32,068 nucleotides of DNA, from IMG/VR virus record IMGVR_UViG_3300045963_000138, positions 1 to 32,068 of that record; one strand, given 5' to 3'. Shown here in pieces: positions 15,869 to 30,132 of the stretch. The notes under the pieces were generated by a model. It was not told the DNA's origin, made no database searches, and worked only from the letters and a program-made list of their open reading frames with translations. The translations under genes were made by a program, and so were the position numbers. Source of the DNA: a virus. Positions within the stretch are counted from its first letter, which is position 1. Each line of letters opens with the position of its first letter.

Positions 15869-16099
15869 TCAAGCACTATTTGCACGGCTTTCATCTTCGA
15901 CCCAATCGGCCTGCCCCACAAATTCCCGCGCCCTGGCTGCAGTCGGTGGCCTGGCTGGCTTGCGCTCCGGTCGCGGCTTGACTAGCCCCGCAAGACGGGC
16001 GCAGCGCGGCCCCCATGCCACCGTTCGGCCCTTGCTGTCGGTCAGCACGGGGGTGGATGGCCTGGGCAGCATCGGGCGCCCGCAGCGGCAGCAGATCAC
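15869..16099 (-). CDS. Small zinc-ribbon-like protein
   Basis: A 76-residue protein with GTG start overlapping the methyltransferase stop as GTGA. It begins with CCRCGRPM, a Cys-x-x-Cys knuckle, and has a second cysteine at RCARLAG. The remainder is arginine and proline-rich (KPRPERKPARPPTAARAR). It could bind nucleic acid or partner the methyltransferase that it is translationally coupled to. No family assigned. Confidence 0.6.
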   Translation of the reverse strand: MICCRCGRPMLPRPSTPVLTDSKGRTVAWGPRCARLAGLVKPRPERKPARPPTAARAREFVGQADWVEDESRANSA

Positions 16100-16995
16100 G
16101 GCATCCCCTTTGCTGCCTTCACGAACATGGCCGCGACTTGCGGGACGATGGCATTGCCGTAACCCCGCAGGCGTCCCACTCGGGCGGGTAGCCCATGAGC
16201 CAGCGGGAATGTGCCGGGTTCAACTGGCCGCCACTTTCCATCCCGGCAGGCAAGCCAGTCAGCAGCTCGCCAGAAGCTGTCAGTCGGGCCGGCTGCATGT
16301 GCATCGTGATGCTGGTCAGCGTATGCCCCCGCGTCCCGCGCGCAATCGCCCCCTCGCCGCCCGACGAGTTCCCGTCCTGCCTTAGTGGCGTCGGCCAGCC
16401 GGACAACACCGCCACCTCGTTCAGCGGTCGGGCGTTCGTTCCCCATCGCTCCAGCGTTGAGCCCTTCCAGTCCCGTGCCGCTGGTGTCGGCCAGGCCGAC
16501 ACCACACCAGTAGAGACGCTGCCTGATGTGCGGGGCGCCGACGCCCGCAGCGCACAGATCCGCAGCCCCGAAGGCGTAGCCCGCTGCTTCCAGGTCAGCG
16601 CGTACAAGGTCGAGCCACACGAGGCCGTCAGCGCTTGCAACCTGTTCGCCAAAGACGCTTGTAGGTTTGCGCTGCTCAATGAGGTGGAAGAAGGCTGGCC
16701 ATAAGTGCCGCTCGTCAGCCGTCCCGAGGCCTTTGCCTGCCGCGCTGAAAGGTTGGCAAGGGCAGGAGCCGGTCCAAACAGGTCGAGCGTCGTCCCATCC
16801 AGCCAGTCGCAGGGCATATGACCATCCGCCGATGCCGGCGAAGAAATGGCATTGGCTGAATCCGTCCAGGTCTCGCGGGCAGACATCCTCGATGCTCCTT
16901 GTGTCGACTTCACCGTCAGCGATGTGGCCGGCCTTGATGAGTTCGCGCAGCCATGCGGCGGCGCGCGGGTCGAATTCGCTGTAGTACGCGGTCAT
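16096..16995 (-). CDS. dcm: C5 cytosine DNA methyltransferase
   Basis: A 299-residue enzyme transferring methyl from S-adenosylmethionine to carbon 5 of cytosine. Motif I is FAGIGG (52-57), the catalytic Pro-Cys of motif IV is in [12 protein letters not shown] (Cys80), motif VI reads FGEQVAS with Glu117 (the usual ENV form is replaced by GEQV, as in a subfamily common in betaproteobacterial phages), motif VIII is HIRQRLYW and motif X is [10 protein letters not shown] start at ATG 16995 by the TGATG junction. The target-recognition region is short and glycine-rich with repeated LAD(T/A) units. It may protect phage DNA from host restriction. A second long frame lies inside it. Confidence 0.9.
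16119..16886 (-). CDS. Overlapping +1-frame protein inside the methyltransferase gene (WPTP / [11 protein letters not shown] family)
   Basis: A 255-residue frame lies wholly inside the C5 methyltransferase gene in the +1 frame. Its ATG at 16886 has an AAGGAG ribosome site 8 bases upstream, so independent initiation is plausible. Segments such as [53 protein letters not shown] and [18 protein letters not shown] recur, from memory, in many phage and environmental proteins of unknown function. The WPTP units are exactly the shifted reading of the methyltransferase LADT units. It could be real dual coding, or a frame kept open by the conserved methyltransferase sequence and high GC. Confidence 0.55.
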
Positions 16996-17183
16996 CACGG
17001 CATCCCCGCAGCGATGCGCCTGGCCAGCTCGGCGTCGTACTGAATGCGCCATGATCGATAGCTAACGCTGGGGCTCTTGCCATACCCCACAAGCCCGGCG
17101 CCGGCGCAGCGCCACGTGATCAGTGCGCGATGGTTCCCGGTAGCTGGGTGGTGAAAGTAGCGGGTGATGTGTGGCTTTGTCAT
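16995..17183 (-). CDS. Small hypothetical protein
   Basis: A 62-residue basic protein (MTKPHITRYFHHPATGNH at the start; SYRSWRIQYDAELARRIAAG near the end). ATG 17183 makes an ATGA overlap with the upstream gene, and its stop makes TGATG with the methyltransferase. The content of His, Arg and Tyr suggests nucleic-acid contact, but no family is recognised. Confidence 0.6.
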   Translation of the reverse strand: MTKPHITRYFHHPATGNHRALITWRCAGAGLVGYGKSPSVSYRSWRIQYDAELARRIAAGMP

Positions 17184-24803: not shown

Positions 24804-24950
24804 ATGGCAACAAAGCAAACAGAGCGGCAAAACGTGTGGCTTCTCAAGATCCACATGGCCGCATTTCGCGCCTTGTCAATGATGACAGGGGTTCCGACTG
24901 TGAAATTGATCCGCCGCGCGATGGCTGAATTCTTGGAGCGCAACAAGTGA
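24804..24950 (+). CDS. Ribbon-helix-helix regulator upstream of recT
   Basis: A 48-residue protein: MATKQTERQNVWLLKIHMAA, then FRALSMMTGVPTVKLIRRAM and AEFLERNK. This is a strand plus two helices, the Arc-like ribbon-helix-helix plan. It ends in a GTGA overlap with recT, so it is translationally coupled to it. It has its own TTGACA promoter and no ribosome site. It may regulate the recombination genes or its own promoter. Confidence 0.68.
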   Translation: MATKQTERQNVWLLKIHMAAFRALSMMTGVPTVKLIRRAMAEFLERNK

Positions 24951-25930
24951 GCCAAATTGCAGTTATTGAAGGTGACATATATGGCGTCAGAGCGCAGTTT
25001 GAATCTGTCGCAGGCCCATCACTGAAGTTCGAGGCTGAAGCACGCTTCGCCATGCAGGCAATCACTGCTAGCGACTATGCCATGGGCATTGCGATGAGCA
25101 ATCGCCAGAGCGTCATCAACGCTGTTGCGAATATCGCCGCAATCGGCATCAGCCTGAACCCTGCGAAGAAGCAGGCATACCTAGTGCCGCGAGATGGCCG
25201 CATCTGCTTGGACATCAGCTACATGGGCTTGATGGATCTTGCGATGCAGGCCGGCTCGATCCGATGGGGGCAGTGCAAAGTAGTACACGCGGCCGATACA
25301 TTCGAGCTGGACGGACTGGACAAGCAGCCGACGCACAGGTATCAGCCATTTTCCAAGGATCGCGGCGATGCCGTCGGCGTGTACTGTGTCGTCAAGACGG
25401 GTGACGGCGACTACCTGACACACGCGATGAGCATCGAGGACGTGCATTCCATCCGTGATCGATCAAGCGCATGGAAGGCATGGATCGCAAAAAAGAAGTC
25501 GTGCCCATGGGTTACCGATGAAGGGGAAATGATCAAAAAAACCTGCATCAAGCAGGCATACAAATACTGGCCGCGCGTCGAGCAATCGAAGCTGGAAACC
25601 GCAATCCACTACCTTAACACCGAGGCCGGCGAAGGAATACCGCTGGATGATGACAAGCCAAAGAGCCGGCCGGCTGGCGGCAAGCAGGCCGGGCAAGATG
25701 CGCTCTCTGAGATGAGCACCGAGGATCAGAGCATCCTGCGAGAGTTGGCCGCTGAAGCTGTCGAGTCGTTCAAAGAATACGGCATCGGCCCGGCCTTCGA
25801 TTTCATCCGCGCCCAGGCTCTCGACGTCGACCAGACGGTTGCCTTCTGGTCAATGCTGCCGAGCGATTTCAGGTCAGCGCTGAAGAAGGAAAAGGCGGCG
25901 CGCGATGAGGCCGCAAAGGTGGTTGCGTGA
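24947..25930 (+). CDS. recT: RecT-family single-strand annealing protein
   Basis: A 327-residue annealing recombinase with GTG start (GTGA junction). The central region has the RecT core: [40 protein letters not shown] and [13 protein letters not shown], then [11 protein letters not shown] and the helical [19 protein letters not shown]. It anneals complementary strands after 5' resection. The C-terminal 80 residues are charged and variable. No partner 5'-3' exonuclease is visible in the window. Confidence 0.92.
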
Positions 25931-25931
25931 A

Positions 25932-26360
25932 ATGACCCGCCAGACCGTCACCCTGTACAACGCCCAGCAGGGCCACAAAGAGCTGATGCGCCTTTGGGTG
26001 TGGTGCAAGGCGATGCTTCTGGCAGAGCACCGGCTGACCATCGAAGCCAGGCCAGAGAAGCGCAGCGATGCGCAAAACCGGCTGATGTGGTCGGCCCTTG
26101 GAGACTGCGCCAGGCAGATCACATGGCACGGACAAAAGCTCGACGCTGAGGCATGGAAGGACATGGCAACGGCTGCGCTGAAGCGGCAGCGTGTGGTGCC
26201 AGGGATCGACGGTGGATTTGTGGTGCTGGGCCAGCGCACAAGCCAGATGACGAAGGCCGAAATGACTGAGCTGATCGAGTTCATCCACTGCTTCGGCTCG
26301 CACCAGGGCGTGCAGTGGTCCCCTACATCAATTGCACAAGACATGGAGCAAACCGCATGA
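25932..26360 (+). CDS. ninB: NinB (lambda Orf)-like recombination mediator
   Basis: A 142-residue homologue of lambda NinB/Orf, which helps load recombinases onto SSB-coated DNA. Key segments are LTIEARPEKRSDAQNRLMWS, ALGDCARQITWHGQKLDAEA and WKDMATAALKRQRVVPGIDG, then TELIEFIHCFGSHQGVQWSP. The SDAQNRLMW motif is diagnostic. I start at ATG 25932, one base after the recT stop. With RecT and NinG this gives a fuller recombination set. Confidence 0.9.
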   Translation: MTRQTVTLYNAQQGHKELMRLWVWCKAMLLAEHRLTIEARPEKRSDAQNRLMWSALGDCARQITWHGQKLDAEAWKDMATAALKRQRVVPGIDGGFVVLGQRTSQMTKAEMTELIEFIHCFGSHQGVQWSPTSIAQDMEQTA

Positions 26361-26749
26361 CCACCGCCACCACCGAAACACGCTGGTATGTAATAACCCC
26401 CGAAGGTCGCGCAAAATTGTGCGCCGACGAAAATGAGGCGCGCAAGGTAGCGCACGAATGGAATATGTTTCCGCCCGCCGGGAAGCCGTATAAAGCGGTT
26501 TTACTCGGCGATGTATCTGCTATTGCAGCAGAGCGCGACGCGATGCGCGAGGCGCTGCGCGACCAGCCAGGCTTGGCAGAGCGGGCATTTTTCAAGATGC
26601 AGTCCAACGACGCCAAGGCACATGCATACCGCATGGCGATGGCGCCGCCCGGGGCGTGCCCATCGTGCTACGGGGATGGCGAGCAAGGTGGCCAGTTCTG
26701 CGGCGGGTTCTGGCAGTGCGAGAGCTGCGGCGGAACAGGTAAGGCCTAA
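26357..26749 (+). CDS. Zinc-finger accessory protein ending at the first attC-like site
   Basis: A 130-residue protein from ATG 26357 (ATGA junction). N-terminal residues (TETRWYVITPEGRAKLCADE) form a small domain. The C-terminal 30 residues hold a DnaJ-like zinc pair: CPSCYGDGEQ at 101-110, then C115 and CESCGGTG at 121-128. Its TAA stop lies inside the first box (GCCTAAC) of the attC-like site that follows. Such DnaJ-type Cys pairs are frequent in small phage accessory proteins. Confidence 0.68.
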   Translation: MTTATTETRWYVITPEGRAKLCADENEARKVAHEWNMFPPAGKPYKAVLLGDVSAIAAERDAMREALRDQPGLAERAFFKMQSNDAKAHAYRMAMAPPGACPSCYGDGEQGGQFCGGFWQCESCGGTGKA

Positions 26750-26800
26750 CGCTTGAGCTAAGGGGCGCCGTCAGGCGTCCCTTTGAGCGAAGAGTTAGGC
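26744..26800 (+). repeat. attC-like site 1
   Basis: A 57-base imperfect inverted repeat. The outer boxes GCCTAAC (26744-26750) and GTTAGGC (26794-26800) are perfect complements. Inside them come a short CTT/AAG pairing, an unpaired spacer of about 5 bases on each side, then AAGGGGCGCC pairing with GGCGTCCCTT (one G-T pair) around a GTCA loop. This is the R-box, unpaired spacer and L-stem plan of integron attC sites. The first box contains the stop codon of the preceding gene. Confidence 0.7.
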
Positions 26801-26835
26801 AGCGCCTGGTGGCGAACAACGAAAGGACCGAAGAC

Positions 26836-27144
26836 ATGAAGATTGCACCGACACCCTGGGGCCGCGACAAGTACGTCAGCATCGTTGATGCGACCGGCGA
26901 GCGCGTGGAGTTGACCGGCATTGCGATGGCTACAGGCCGCATCAGCGACGACGCGCTGTGCCACGGGAATAGCGCGCTGCTTCTGGCGGCACCAAAGATG
27001 GCCGACGTGCTGCGCGCGATTGTGCGAAGCGCTGAATTGAACCAAGCGGCCGTGAACACGTTTCTGCTGATTGACGCCCGCGAAGTACTGGCGATGTTGG
27101 ATGGCGTTGAAATGCTTGCCGCGCCGGTATTGGGTGCTGCATAA
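26836..27144 (+). CDS. Cassette gene 1: phage accessory protein
   Basis: A 102-residue protein from ATG 26836 (MKIAPTPWGRDKYVSIVDAT), with GAAAGGA upstream. The pattern PTPW-x-x-D, GIAMATGRISDDALCHGNSA and LLLAAPKMADVLRAIVRSA is a very common phage accessory family of unknown function, where the middle part is usually a (N-x)-A-x-L-(I/L)-AAPxL unit. It lies between site 1 and site 2, and its TAA stop is inside the first box of site 2. Confidence 0.7.
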   Translation: MKIAPTPWGRDKYVSIVDATGERVELTGIAMATGRISDDALCHGNSALLLAAPKMADVLRAIVRSAELNQAAVNTFLLIDAREVLAMLDGVEMLAAPVLGAA

Positions 27145-27241
27145 CTACTGACATAACCGCGCCAGACCCGGCGCAAAGGAAAGACGATGAGCAAGCAAGA
27201 GTATCCCGCCGGGGCTGGTCAGGTTGATGGAACAGTTAGGC
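27139..27241 (+). repeat. attC-like site 2 (with a start codon in its loop)
   Basis: A 103-base site. Outer boxes are GCATAAC (27139-27145) and GTTAGGC (27235-27241), pairing at 6 of 7. The inner arms CCAGACCCGGC (27162-27172) and GCCGGGGCTGG (27208-27218) pair at 10 of 11, with an AACC/GGTT pairing outside them and unpaired spacers between the stems. The large terminal loop holds an AAAGGAAAG ribosome site and ATG 27187 of the next gene. Confidence 0.7.
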
Positions 27242-27546
27242 CTAGTGCCTGGATAACCGAGAGCGGCAATGAATGCCTGCAATGCGACGATGGCCAAATA
27301 CGTGCGATGCCAGCCCAGGATGAAAACTGCGGCTTCGTGGTGCCGCTGTACGGCCAAGCCGCGCTTGATGCAGCCGTGGCCGCAGAGCGCGAGCGGTTCA
27401 CAGGGGCGCGGCAGGCTGCGCTTGAGAAAGATGCGCAGCGCTACCGCAAACTACGCGCGGGCAAATACAGCATTCAGGTGGCGCGCAGCATCCTCAACGA
27501 CACTCCGCACGGAATTGATGAAACTGTGGATGCGTTGAGCCACTGA
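27187..27546 (+). CDS. Cassette gene 2: accessory protein started inside attC-like site 2
   Basis: A 119-residue protein. ATG 27187 has a strong ribosome site (AAAGG) and lies in the loop of site 2, so the first 16 residues (MSKQEYPAGAGQVDGT) are coded by the site itself and the frame runs through its GTTAGGC box. From there the body, RPSAWITESGNECLQCDDGQ and later GFVVPLYGQAALDAAVAAER, is the common phage accessory pattern ((Q/R)PSAW-x-T ... VPLYx-x-AAL-D-A). Between them is GQIRAMPAQDENC. No later in-frame ATG has a good site. Function unknown. Confidence 0.68.
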   Translation: MSKQEYPAGAGQVDGTVRPSAWITESGNECLQCDDGQIRAMPAQDENCGFVVPLYGQAALDAAVAAERERFTGARQAALEKDAQRYRKLRAGKYSIQVARSILNDTPHGIDETVDALSH

Positions 27547-27555
27547 ATTGGTGCT

Positions 27556-27611
27556 GCCTAACTACTGAGGTCACGCGCGCCGAAGGCGTCGCGTGCACCG
27601 GCAAGTTAGCC
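27556..27611 (+). repeat. attC-like site 3 (shared by convergent genes)
   Basis: A 56-base site with boxes GCCTAAC (27556-27562) and GTTAGCC (27605-27611), which differ at one pair. The arms pair as GGT, CACGCGCGCC on the left with GGCG-CGCGTG-ACC on the right, leaving an extra T and an extra C unpaired on the right arm around a GAA loop, like the extrahelical bases of attC. The TACTGAG spacer after the first box is also found at site 4. The right box contains the TAA of the minus-strand gene. Confidence 0.7.
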
Positions 27612-27770
27612 GGCTGGTGGACGAGAGCGCAGGATGACCGCGCGCAGCCACTCCAGGCCGTTGGCGTCGATCTTGGCCCACAGCGCAGGCGGCAAGCGGA
27701 TGGACCGCTGCACCAGGCATTCGGCTTCGGGTTTTGGCGGGCGCCCGCCCTTGTTCTTTGGCTGTTCCAT
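27606..27770 (-). CDS. Cassette gene 3 (reverse): small GGRPPKP regulator
   Basis: A 54-residue protein on the minus strand: MEQPKNKGGRPPKPEAECLV, QRSIRLPPALWAKIDANGLE, then WLRAVILRSRPPAG. The basic GGRPPKP start, a (V/Q)-RSIRL strand and two helices form a small RHH-like DNA-binding protein that is frequent in phages and mobile elements. Its TAA lies in the right box of site 3. A TATACT hexamer at 27778-27783 ends 7 bases before the ATG, and no ribosome site is seen. Confidence 0.7.
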   Translation of the reverse strand: MEQPKNKGGRPPKPEAECLVQRSIRLPPALWAKIDANGLEWLRAVILRSRPPAG

Positions 27771-27777
27771 GCGGCGC

Positions 27778-27783
27778 AGTATA
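27778..27783 (-). promoter_or_regulatory. Candidate -10 element of the reverse cassette gene
   Basis: The minus strand reads TATACT (5 of 6 consensus), ending 7 bases before ATG 27770. A convincing -35 box is absent. The distance implies a leaderless or nearly leaderless transcript. Confidence 0.4.
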
Positions 27784-27861
27784 CGTGATGCATAAACCGC
27801 TTGCGCGACTGATGTTTGTGTGATTCAATAACACCCATCAACACAGCAACCGGAGCGAAAC

Positions 27862-27996
27862 ATGAACAGCAAGCAAGACACCGTGACGATGACATGGCAA
27901 GCCAATGGCCGCAACTGGCGCGAGCTGCGCGCATGGAACGGCTGGGGCTTCCAGTACTTCACGCAGTACGAATACGCGCCGGGGGTGTGGCTGTGA
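27862..27996 (+). CDS. Cassette gene 4: very small tryptophan-rich protein
   Basis: A 44-residue protein (MNSKQDTVTMTWQANGRNWR, then ELRAWNGWGFQYFTQYEYAP) with GGAG 8 bases before the ATG. It has five tryptophans and four tyrosines in 44 residues. It ends in a GTGA overlap with the next gene. The 91 bases upstream are the divergent region towards the reverse gene. No family known. Confidence 0.6.
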   Translation: MNSKQDTVTMTWQANGRNWRELRAWNGWGFQYFTQYEYAPGVWL

Positions 27997-28277
27997 GCGG
28001 GGGGCGCAAGCCCATTACCGGGGCCGAGAAAGATGTTGCATGGAAGCTCGCGCAAAAACACAGCCTACTGTTCTTGGAGCAAGGGACACAAACGTTTGAC
28101 GACGCACTGTTTGCGTTCTGCGCCGATATGCTGCAGGCGTTTGGCGAAGACGGGCAGAGGTCCCGCTGGCTTGTTGAATGCAAGCATGTCCCGTGGGGAC
28201 AGGTCATCGATGCTGCGCACGCCGCTGAACACGGATTGGATGCCGCGATTGATGCGGCCAGAAGCAAGGCCGGCTAA
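27993..28277 (+). CDS. Cassette gene 5: hypothetical protein
   Basis: A 94-residue protein with GTG start (GTGA overlap). It begins VSGGRKPITGAEKDVAWKLA and continues with LFLEQGTQTFDDALFAFCAD and a helical C-terminus (VIDAAHAAEHGLDAAIDAAR). It looks helical and cytoplasmic. The TAA stop lies in the first box of site 4. I do not recognise a family. Confidence 0.62.
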   Translation: MSGGRKPITGAEKDVAWKLAQKHSLLFLEQGTQTFDDALFAFCADMLQAFGEDGQRSRWLVECKHVPWGQVIDAAHAAEHGLDAAIDAARSKAG

Positions 28278-28370
28278 CTACTGAGCTGAACCGGCCCCAC
28301 GGCGCTGCCGGTATATGCAAACTGACGAGCCGCGCCCGCCGTGGGGATCGGTTCGAGCGATAAGTTAGGC
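28272..28370 (+). repeat. attC-like site 4
   Basis: A 99-base site. Boxes are GGCTAAC (28272-28278) and GTTAGGC (28364-28370). The stem pairs CTGAACCGG with TCGGTTCGAG (one extra A on the right arm) and then CCCCACGGC with GCCGTGGGG perfectly, with a large loop. The TACTGAG spacer after the first box matches site 3. The longest and cleanest of the four. Confidence 0.72.
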
Positions 28371-28390
28371 CTGTGGGCCGGAGTGAGAAG

Positions 28391-28630
28391 ATGCGTGATA
28401 AGCAACTGAAACCGAAGCTAGTTCCGCTGCCATGCCCGTTTTGCGGCATGAAACCGAAGCTGGCGCCGCAGAACCCCGATGAGGACGGAAACGCCTGGGG
28501 CGAGGTGTACTGCGCCAGCAGCAGGTGCGCCGTGGCGCCCAGCGTGAAGGACGGCCAGGACTGCGCCGACGAGCGCGGGACGGGTGCCTACATGGACTGT
28601 GCGATTCGCCGATGGAACAAAAGGGCCTAA
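28391..28630 (+). CDS. lar-like: Cassette gene 6: Lar-like restriction alleviation protein
   Basis: A 79-residue protein from ATG 28391, with GGAG 7 bases upstream. It carries the Lar-family pattern LPCPFCGMKPKL (C15, C18), WGEVYCASSRC (C41, C46) and the ending ACAIRRWNKR-like segment YMDCAIRRWNKRA, i.e. two Cys pairs and a terminal W-N-x-R. By family knowledge Lar of Rac prophage modulates type I restriction; many phage relatives have no tested function. The TAA stop lies in GCCTAAC of the half-site. Confidence 0.78.
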   Translation: MRDKQLKPKLVPLPCPFCGMKPKLAPQNPDEDGNAWGEVYCASSRCAVAPSVKDGQDCADERGTGAYMDCAIRRWNKRA

Positions 28631-28667
28631 CTAGTCCATCGCCCGCAGTTTTGCTGCGTATGCGGGC
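28625..28667 (+). repeat. attC-like half-site 5 and hairpin ending the cassette series
   Basis: The first box GCCTAAC (28625-28631) is intact and holds the stop of the Lar-like gene, and a stem GCCCGCA/TGCGGGC (28641-28647 and 28661-28667) follows. No matching GTTAGGC-type box is found in the next 80 bases (the nearest is GTTGATT at 28695). It looks like a truncated last site. It lies between convergent operons and the hairpin may also end transcription, though no T-run follows. Confidence 0.5.
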
Positions 28668-28725
28668 CCCTGCTGCGTAATAACATGCGCAACCTGTTGA
28701 TTTGCAACGACCCCATGCATACGCA

Positions 28726-28887
28726 TCACTCCCCCGGCTTTTTCAGTGCCGTGTGATACAGACCAAGTCCCATCAGCATGTCGCGCAGCAGTTGCACATA
28801 GCTTGTGGCGTCCGTGAGGCCTGCGACCACAAGCCCGCCCCAGATCGCCAGGATCACACCGCCGATGATCATTTTCTGCTGCATCAC
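28726..28887 (-). CDS. Small membrane protein of the lysis cluster
   Basis: A 53-residue protein from ATG 28887 (ATGA overlap with the Rz-like stop). It starts MQQKMIIGGVILAIWGGLVV, a clear membrane helix, with a polar C-terminal half (MLMGLGLYHTALKKPGE). It is the last gene of the late operon. It could be a holin partner or antiholin, inferred from place only. Confidence 0.6.
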   Translation of the reverse strand: MMQQKMIIGGVILAIWGGLVVAGLTDATSYVQLLRDMLMGLGLYHTALKKPGE

Positions 28888-29375
28888 TGGCCTCTCAGCG
28901 AGTCGGCCCACTGCTCGCAGGCACGTCCTGCTGCATTTGCCTGATCAAGAGCTGCCGCAAGTTCTCCCGCAGCGCCGTCAATCCTGCTGAGCACGTCGGC
29001 AAGCATAGGGGCGGAAGCGGGTCTTGCCGGGCCTGCATCGGCAGGGCGGGAATCACCGGCGGCTGCACCACTTGCGGCGGCTTTGCGGGCAGCGTCGAGC
29101 AGGCTGACATGAGCATCGTCAGCGCGGCGAGCGTCAGCAGTCGAATGGTCACGGGCGAGCTGGGCGACATGGGCAATCTCCTGGGTGGCGTCGGTGCGGC
29201 GGTGCTCCTCGGCCCGGTAGGCCTCGGATGCGGATGCGGCGGCCTGGGCGTACTCGGCGCGGATCGCCGTGATCTGCGCCTGGCCGTACTGGCTGGCGAT
29301 GTGGTGGCCATGCGCCCAGGCCGCAGCGATCAGAGCAGCACCGGCCAGCAAGCGGTAGGGGATGGGGACCATCAT
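28884..29375 (-). CDS. Rz: Rz-like inner-membrane spanin (i-spanin)
   Basis: A 163-residue protein: an N-terminal hydrophobic anchor (YRLLAGAALIAAAWAHGHH), then a periplasmic Ala/Glu/Arg coiled coil (EYAQAAASASEAYRAEEHRR) and a helical C-terminus. This is the DUF2514/Rz spanin plan. With Rz1 it bridges the envelope and disrupts the outer membrane at the end of lysis. The Rz1 gene lies inside it in another frame. Its ATG overlaps the muramidase stop as ATGA. Confidence 0.82.
   Translation of the reverse strand: MMVPIPYRLLAGAALIAAAWAHGHHIASQYGQAQITAIRAEYAQAAASASEAYRAEEHRRTDATQEIAHVAQLARDHSTADARRADDAHVSLLDAARKAAASGAAAGDSRPADAGPARPASAPMLADVLSRIDGAAGELAAALDQANAAGRACEQWADSLRGQ
28895..29170 (-). 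CDS. Rz1: Rz1-like outer-membrane lipoprotein spanin, nested in Rz
   Basis: A 91-residue protein in a second frame inside Rz. The ATG at 29170 has AGGAG 7 bases upstream. It starts MSPSSPVTIRLLTLAALTML then MSAC, a lipobox with the acylated cysteine at about residue 24, followed by a proline-rich stretch (STLPAKPPQVVQPPVIPALP). The signal peptide, lipobox and proline-rich mature chain are the o-spanin signature. Nested Rz/Rz1 pairs are well known. Confidence 0.85.
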   Translation of the reverse strand: MSPSSPVTIRLLTLAALTMLMSACSTLPAKPPQVVQPPVIPALPMQARQDPLPPLCLPTCSAGLTALRENLRQLLIRQMQQDVPASSGPTR

Positions 29376-29839
29376 GCGGCCCTCAAGTTGTCGGCAATCC
29401 GCTTTGCCCAGCCCCGGCCGAATGTCTGCCAGGCCGGCAATGAGGCCATGAATGCTAGCCTGGCGCCGTTGAAACGGGCAATCAGCCTGGTCGGTGGCAT
29501 CGAGTTGATCGCCATCACTGTCCGCGGCCCCATCACGCCATCTTCAGCCTCGCCCACGGCTTGCTGCAGCAGCCTCACGGCCGGCCACTGGCCCGAGTGC
29601 ACCGCAGTGTCGAACAGATCAAACTTGATGGCATCCGGAACGACACCACAGCCTGCCGGTCCCCAATAGTCGCGCAGGTAGATGGCCTTGGCTCGCTCCA
29701 GCGTCATGCCGGCGATGTCCTCACCATGGTATGAGCGCTTGCTGATGCCGTACTTGGTTTCTCCGCCTGGATCGGCTGGGTCGTTGACGTAACCGCCCTC
29801 ATGGCCAATCAGTTTTTCAAATGCCGTGTCAAATTCCAT
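29372..29839 (-). CDS. GH108-type N-acetylmuramidase endolysin
   Basis: A 155-residue endolysin from ATG 29839 (TGATG junction; a GTG at 29842 is also possible). The motif HEGGYVNDPADPGGETKYGI at residues 13-32 is the GH108 active-site region, with catalytic Glu14; the C-terminal part (FDTAVHSGQWPAVRLLQQAV then DGVMGPRTV) is the peptidoglycan-binding-like half typical of the family. It cleaves the glycan of the cell wall. No signal peptide is seen, so release needs the holin. Confidence 0.9.
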   Translation of the reverse strand: MEFDTAFEKLIGHEGGYVNDPADPGGETKYGISKRSYHGEDIAGMTLERAKAIYLRDYWGPAGCGVVPDAIKFDLFDTAVHSGQWPAVRLLQQAVGEAEDGVMGPRTVMAINSMPPTRLIARFNGARLAFMASLPAWQTFGRGWAKRIADNLRAA

Positions 29840-30132
29840 CACTTGCCCCGGTGGTGCGATTGATCATCCAGCGGAATCGGCCGACTGCTCATCTTGTCGA
29901 GCCGATCCCATACCCGCTCTAGGGTTCGCTGCTCTTGCTCATGCCGGCTTGTCGACTTGATCCATTCGAATATCTTGAGCACCGTGTAGACGATGGTCAG
30001 CAGGCCAACGGCCAGGGTCACCCAATCGTTGATCTGCGACATGGTGACACTTGCCCCTGCAGCGCATTTTACCCATGCGCCCCAATCGATTGTTTGGGCT
30101 GCGCTTGCGGCGTGGTCGGATGGGGTGGTCAT
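29839..30132 (-). CDS. Holin-like membrane protein
   Basis: A 97-residue protein from ATG 30132 (TGATG junction with the tailspike). It has one clear membrane segment (INDWVTLAVGLLTIVYTVLK) preceded by a weakly hydrophobic region, and a charged C-terminus (RHEQEQRTLERVWDRLDKMS). Place between tailspike and muramidase and the charged tail fit a holin, but the number of membrane helices is one, which fits a class III or an unusual type. Assignment moderate. Confidence 0.68.
   Translation of the reverse strand: MTTPSDHAASAAQTIDWGAWVKCAAGASVTMSQINDWVTLAVGLLTIVYTVLKIFEWIKSTSRHEQEQRTLERVWDRLDKMSSRPIPLDDQSHHRGK

Follow-up and report, generated by a model that had tools for sequence, protein, structure and literature searches.

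A question raised by the early operon of one tailed phage is whether the long inverted repeats between its small genes are integron attC sites, and whether the genes they separate move as cassettes. The phage is known as IMG/VR virus record IMGVR_UViG_3300045963_000138, whose 32,068 bases were analyzed whole and are called the window here; terminase, portal, scaffold, RecT, NinB and lysis genes (an Rz-like spanin and an endolysin) identify it as a tailed phage. Small open reading frames (ORFs) occupy the interval from ninB to the lysis genes, six on the plus strand (one before the array, five within it) and one on the minus strand, together with long inverted repeats, four in all, and an isolated GCCTAAC. 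Our reading, to which we assign a probability of roughly 0.83, is that this part of the early operon is an integrase-less integron-type cassette array, i.e. a cluster of attC sites lacking an integron integrase (CALIN), with cassettes of reversed polarity that are mobilized by the integron integrase IntI in trans. By definition a CALIN has at least two attC sites within a few kb and no IntI; here four attC sites lie within 1.6 kb, and no IntI was found in the record, as the preliminary description of this DNA had stated.

The four repeats (s1 to s4, Table 1) are real integron attC sites. They were scored with a covariance model, R1, made from 20 diverse attC sites beside bacterial IntI genes. 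IntI (TIGR02249) matches were collected from 301 genomes of the family of Diaphorobacter caeni, a bacterium whose NinB gene resembles that of the window, and the DNA beside sampled IntI genes was used; according to a simple motif rule, all 95 attC sites found there are directed away from IntI. In the whole window s1 to s4 are the top four R1 matches, all on the minus strand, followed by the opposite strand of s1 (14.9 bits, compared with 59.0 on the minus strand) and an unrelated spot (12.1 bits). The same strand asymmetry is seen for s3 (33.4 vs 7.5 bits), while s2 and s4 are not listed on the plus strand. R1 E-values are rough; control DNA from phages and prophages (237 kb) gave nothing better than E 0.3. 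All four sites follow the attC plan (R''/L''/L'/R', RYYYAAC and GTTRRRY cores, imperfect stem, extrahelical bases), with a one-base deviation each in the cores of s2, s3 and s4. A strict scan for cores plus fold, which yields 0.3 hits per 32 kb on both strands of shuffled windows, recovered s1 and s2; s3 and s4 were missed because one core of each has a G/C change (GTTAGCC and GGCTAAC, respectively). Rfam, at gathering thresholds, found nothing in the window. The repeat coordinates and boxes given in the preliminary description proved exact, and the attC identity it proposed is borne out by model scores well above background.

In a textbook cassette a gene is followed by its attC on the same strand. 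In the window, however, the attC top strand is the minus strand and all genes but one are on the plus strand, so that attC precedes gene and each attC therefore belongs to the gene downstream of it; the order "gene, then attC, same direction" does not hold here. The mobile unit is accordingly attC plus gene plus GCCTAA/C (the slash marks the cut), not the textbook gene plus attC. This inversion of attC relative to the genes is the most unusual feature of the locus and was overlooked in the preliminary description. A unit composed of a gene and its downstream attC was considered and dropped, as homology ended at the 5' core and the attC bodies behind the same gene differed. The ends of the window units match themselves (TTRRRY with RYYYAA), perfectly in three of four and with one mismatch in the fourth. 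The odd core that ends s3 and the one that starts s4 bound a single cassette, unit 3, on either side, and their match is expected if the cassette closes on itself; the left boundary of unit 3 is common to L137 (L-numbers label the compared sequences and loci). One gene (27187-27546) begins in the s2 loop, and three stop codons (27144, 28277 and 28630) fall in cores.

The reversed polarity is not confined to the window. Viral loci were gathered from IMG/VR by a relaxed attC pattern that takes no account of how genes are directed. It matched 58 stretches; with R1, 265 sites from 50 sources were confirmed, and polarity was scored over 46 non-duplicate loci. This selection rests on the attC pattern of one sequence type, the gene calls on our own codon model of coding potential, and the viral status of the loci on IMG/VR, with a terminase (PF03237) found in 14 of 31 records. 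At the viral loci 189 genes run opposite to attC and 12 are canonical, as compared to 7 and 55 in bacterial integron arrays (Fisher p=9e-37). Forty loci are mostly inverted and two canonical, the other four being uncallable (40/42 scorable loci inverted). Most of the 12 hits on the minority strand (L118, L134, L156, L160) stand beside oppositely running genes and are thus inverted as well. Translation starts inside the attC in about a third of the cassettes (54/149), and the stop codon lies inside the core in 64/149. L158 is canonical-looking and has IntI at its contig end. An exact 19-nt attC pattern had no match in IMG/VR. In both divergent arms of one phage (L118, 220-2161 and 8646-12926) there are attC arrays, each inverted to its own genes. 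Relatives of the protein encoded at 27606-27770 occur in L108, L119 and L141, where their genes run the same way as the other genes.

Do such units move? Own-end core matching was scored for 171 units from all loci. Perfect matches were found in 145, and the mean was 0.19 mismatches, compared with 0.53 in shuffled pairs and 0.63 for the core pair within a single attC, which shows that the units are cassettes irrespective of polarity. When phages have a cassette in common but just one of its attC sites, it is the upstream one: likeness was 1.00 upstream vs 0.31-0.63 downstream for L142/L166/L145, 1.00 vs 0.66 for L124/L165 and 0.76 vs 0.55 for L108/L109, with a random median of 0.54. Between phages, 52 internal ends of homology were counted, not all of them independent because of near-duplicate loci. 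The 5' core accounts for 15 of them (1.8% expected) and the 3' core for 4. Units exact at the core on both ends are shared by L134/L142 and by L129/L167. These comparisons show that cassettes have evidently moved between unrelated phages with breakpoints at the cores.

The window contributes its own example. The product of 28391-28630 scores over the Pfam cut-off for Lar_restr_allev (PF14354), and the Lar cassette recurs in the arrays of other phages (L107/L108 and L109) with 94% protein identity and different neighbors, homology ending at GCCTAAC each time; a lack of cassette mobility, which the preliminary description gave as a refuting outcome, is thus not what is seen. By Pfam the protein is like other Lar proteins (PF14354), from which it differs in being a mobile cassette. 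Phage cassettes further carry DNA methyltransferases, an HNH endonuclease and small proteins without known function. Of 208 proteins encoded in phage cassettes, just one has a match in bacterial integron regions, and Lar was not found in the 301 host-family genomes at E 1e-12. A Lar gene with 86% protein identity to the window cassette and no attC around it is present in L110 (5999-6236); it may represent the gene before or after cassette life. In L235 (MW202489.1, 11229-11408) a 180-base phage ORF is annotated as OXA-58 beta-lactamase, a name that is probably wrong at such length.

The lone GCCTAAC at 28625 had been described as a fifth half-site. The motif is there, and is read here as the end of the array, probably attI-like, and not as half of a lost attC. 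On the minus strand it reads G/TTAGGC. Eleven array ends from different phages have the same core followed by an A/T-rich triplet 6-8 nt further on, the A/T share of its positions being 0.91, 1.0 and 0.82 at array ends vs 0.64, 0.32 and 0.50 in attC sites. The sequence GCCTAACTAGTCNAT recurs at the array ends of the window (28625-28644), L112 (2978) and L122 (7177; L122/L168), and also in L239 (10680-10699), where likeness to L122 is limited to about 37 bp around it (92%). L112 and L122 have a homologous backbone from exactly this core onward and unrelated sequence before it. The attI-like ends in the set include GCCTAACTAGTC. We regard the core at 28625 as a candidate for such a resident, attI-like site; an empty site is predicted to read AAGGCCTAACTAGTCC. 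At attG sites, where cassettes insert outside attI (Loot et al. 2024), a simple GTT core in ordinary DNA can receive cassettes, as is proposed for 28625-28631; the recurrence of the same site at the array ends of several phages is more like a resident attI.

As to the enzyme, IntI exceeds the family cut-off in 129 of 301 genomes (43%) of a likely host family and in 0 of 14 controls. Since IntI is frequent in this family, its supply in trans by the host is plausible. In one lineage, G323 (L234, 7549-11020; L231), IntI lies beside a phage integrase and is accompanied by an attI-side core, by four attC sites canonical on the plus strand and by genes on the minus strand. Its cassette genes run towards IntI, making it a phage-borne integron with reversed cassettes.

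In the proposed mechanism, a unit consists of an attC with its top strand on minus and a small phage gene on plus, ending in RYYTAA/C, where the core supplies the stop codon. IntI, coming from a host integron or a co-resident phage, would cut the bottom strand of the folded attC, which in this array is the coding strand, at GCCTAA/C. The unit would leave as a circle and insert at the right-hand attI-like core (28630/28631) or at another attC. Expression would depend on read-through from a phage promoter and not on the integron Pc; according to a review, it is the choice of the bottom strand that secures the cassette orientation needed for Pc expression. The outcome would be a swappable bank of accessory genes, such as those for anti-restriction proteins, methyltransferases and endonucleases.

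Several findings weigh against mobilization of reversed cassettes by IntI in trans. The integrase is absent from the window and over the cut-off in just 2 of 42 array-bearing virus records, and 33 of the 52 exchange boundaries fall elsewhere than at cores. Relatives of the Lar cassette in pairs of the L113/L144 and L114/L123 type have neither attC in common, and the minus-strand 54-aa gene in unit 3 is of canonical polarity. Recombination itself was inferred, not observed, as were the acting enzyme, present activity in the window phage and the route of expression. The scarcity of IntI and the many boundaries outside cores would also suit attC sites that are fossils or passive linkers, with genes exchanged at short conserved attC stretches by the phage's own RecT and NinB through homologous recombination and the integrase no longer involved. 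Indeed, recT and ninB adjoin the array, and homology between near-identical adjacent attC sites in L142 could lead to the loss of a cassette. As a general account this is unlikely: units are delimited by cores at both ends between otherwise unrelated sequences that have few core bases in common, own-end core matching argues against it, and a strand-asymmetric structure that only IntI is known to need (review) is kept at every site. For some exchanges, with RecT and NinB encoded next door, homologous recombination is nevertheless a rival.

A recently captured piece of a host chromosomal integron, as found in Vibrio and Shewanella phages, would explain the resemblance to Burkholderiales-type attC sites, and such captures are published (PMC9892861). 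We consider it very improbable, given that polarity is reversed here and canonical in bacterial arrays, that the bacterial integron regions and the 301 genomes nearly or wholly lack the phage cassette proteins and Lar, that the cargo is typical of phages and that some phages have arrays in both divergent arms. Hardly credible is the view that these are intergenic hairpins of an ordinary kind, terminators or RNA elements, that resemble attC by chance. The repeats do separate genes within one operon, and the ribosome site of the next gene lies inside some of them, but strand-specific scores of up to 59 bits, own-end matching and the lack of any Rfam family over its gathering threshold speak against it, and cassette mobility with exact boundaries contradicts it.

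Table 1. Features of the array and its flanks in the window (units as predicted here; R1 scores with E-values)
Feature	Position	Strand	Remarks
recT	24947-25930	+	phage recombination gene upstream of array
ninB	25905-26360	+	phage recombination gene upstream of array
last pre-array gene (130 aa)	26357-26749	+	overlaps ninB end; stop codon inside first core
attC s1	26744-26800	canonical top on minus	59.0 bits, E 7e-12; fold
unit 1	26750-27144	+	C + s1 body + gene 26836-27144 (102 aa, PHROG 1273-like) + GCATAA
attC s2	27139-27241	canonical top on minus	23.1 bits, E 0.0016; loop holds ribosome site and ATG (27187) of next gene
unit 2	27145-27561	+	s2 + gene 27187-27546 (119 aa) starting within attC; ends GCCTAA
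attC s3	27556-27611	canonical top on minus	33.4 bits, E 6.5e-6; final core GTTAGCC
unit 3	27562-28277	+	s3 + 54-aa gene 27606-27770 (minus strand) + ORFs 27862-27996 and 27993-28277 (plus strand); right end GGCTAA
attC s4	28272-28370	canonical top on minus	42.4 bits, E 5.4e-8; first core GGCTAAC
unit 4	28278-28630	+	s4 + gene 28391-28630 for a 79-aa Lar-like anti-restriction protein; right end GCCTAA
array end	28625-28644	-	core GCCTAA/C, then TAGTCCATCGCC; attI-like (candidate)
flank past array	28726-29842	-	small ORF, Rz-like spanin (28884-29375), endolysin (29372-29842)

A complete integron would have intI, attI and Pc next to its array; this combination was not found in the window record, which may be a fragment. 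The array DNA had no match among annotated phages or plasmids, and annotated phages with similar genes (three Manatee Spring phages and one Pseudomonas phage) gave no attC match. Relatives identified by NinB have no cassette in common with the window; an R1 scan of eight viral NinB relatives, including L110, gave one match (L003, 411-467) and no comparable array was evident. A comparison based on the portal family PF04860 was uninformative. Outside the array, the window encodes a DNA methyltransferase (PHROG 363, 16096-17052, minus strand) of the same family as a cassette in L108.

The preliminary description regarded a phage with a cassette array as new. Such clusters are, however, already reported by Qi et al. 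2023 (PMC9892861), a paper which describes 17 phage attC clusters, IntI1 activity on five of six tested sites and use of attC bottom strands from phage PH101 by IntI1. These phage CALINs (PH101/H101, Tetrasphaera phage TJE1) are like the window in having integrase-less attC clusters among small phage genes, methyltransferase cargo and attC sites usable by IntI1. The text of that paper calls the arrangement typical and is silent on gene/attC polarity, and exchange boundaries, a phage-specific pool and attI-like ends do not appear in it. Re-read here, the cultured, virulent Pseudoalteromonas phage H101/PH101 (KR534323; L241, 25919-27987) shares the reversed polarity, R1 placing its three sites on plus at 25.8, 21.9 and a weak 16.4 bits, with the genes around them on minus; we assume that these are the sites used by IntI1. 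Unlike the window, TJE1 looks canonical at its one readable site. Shewanella phage M16-3 and Vibrio anguillarum phages likewise have integron parts in a phage genome, but M16-3 carries IntI and is canonical-looking on one weak hit and one fold, and the Vibrio anguillarum phage integrons are pieces of the host's integron. Akin to bacterial arrays (class 1 and sedentary chromosomal integrons), the window has the attC structure, the GTTRRRY/RYYYAAC core, self-matching ends and, probably, an attI-like end; it differs in that the gene opposes attC, genes read towards the attI side, IntI and Pc are lacking and the cargo is of phage type. Reversed polarity, phage-specific cargo and the common attI-like end appear to be new; no description of reversed-polarity phage cassettes was found in the literature searched, subscription papers and preprints lying outside the search.

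Taken across the set, phages of Burkholderiales-like hosts probably share a reversed cassette pool of their own, apart from the bacterial pool. Its assembly at a resident attI-like site would be the work of IntI from the host or from a phage, and phages would use the pool to exchange anti-restriction and further accessory genes, driven by phage promoters; the G323 lineage would have its own integrase for it. If this is true, integrons would serve phages, too, in the site-specific exchange of accessory genes, and would provide an exact mechanism for part of phage mosaicism. Reversed polarity would set a phage cassette pool apart from the bacterial one in a way that can be tested, and a recombining bottom strand that is the coding strand of the operon bears on the timing of attC folding. 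Finally, genes such as Lar, which phages carry with an attC in some cases and without one in others, may provide a handle on how cassettes are born.

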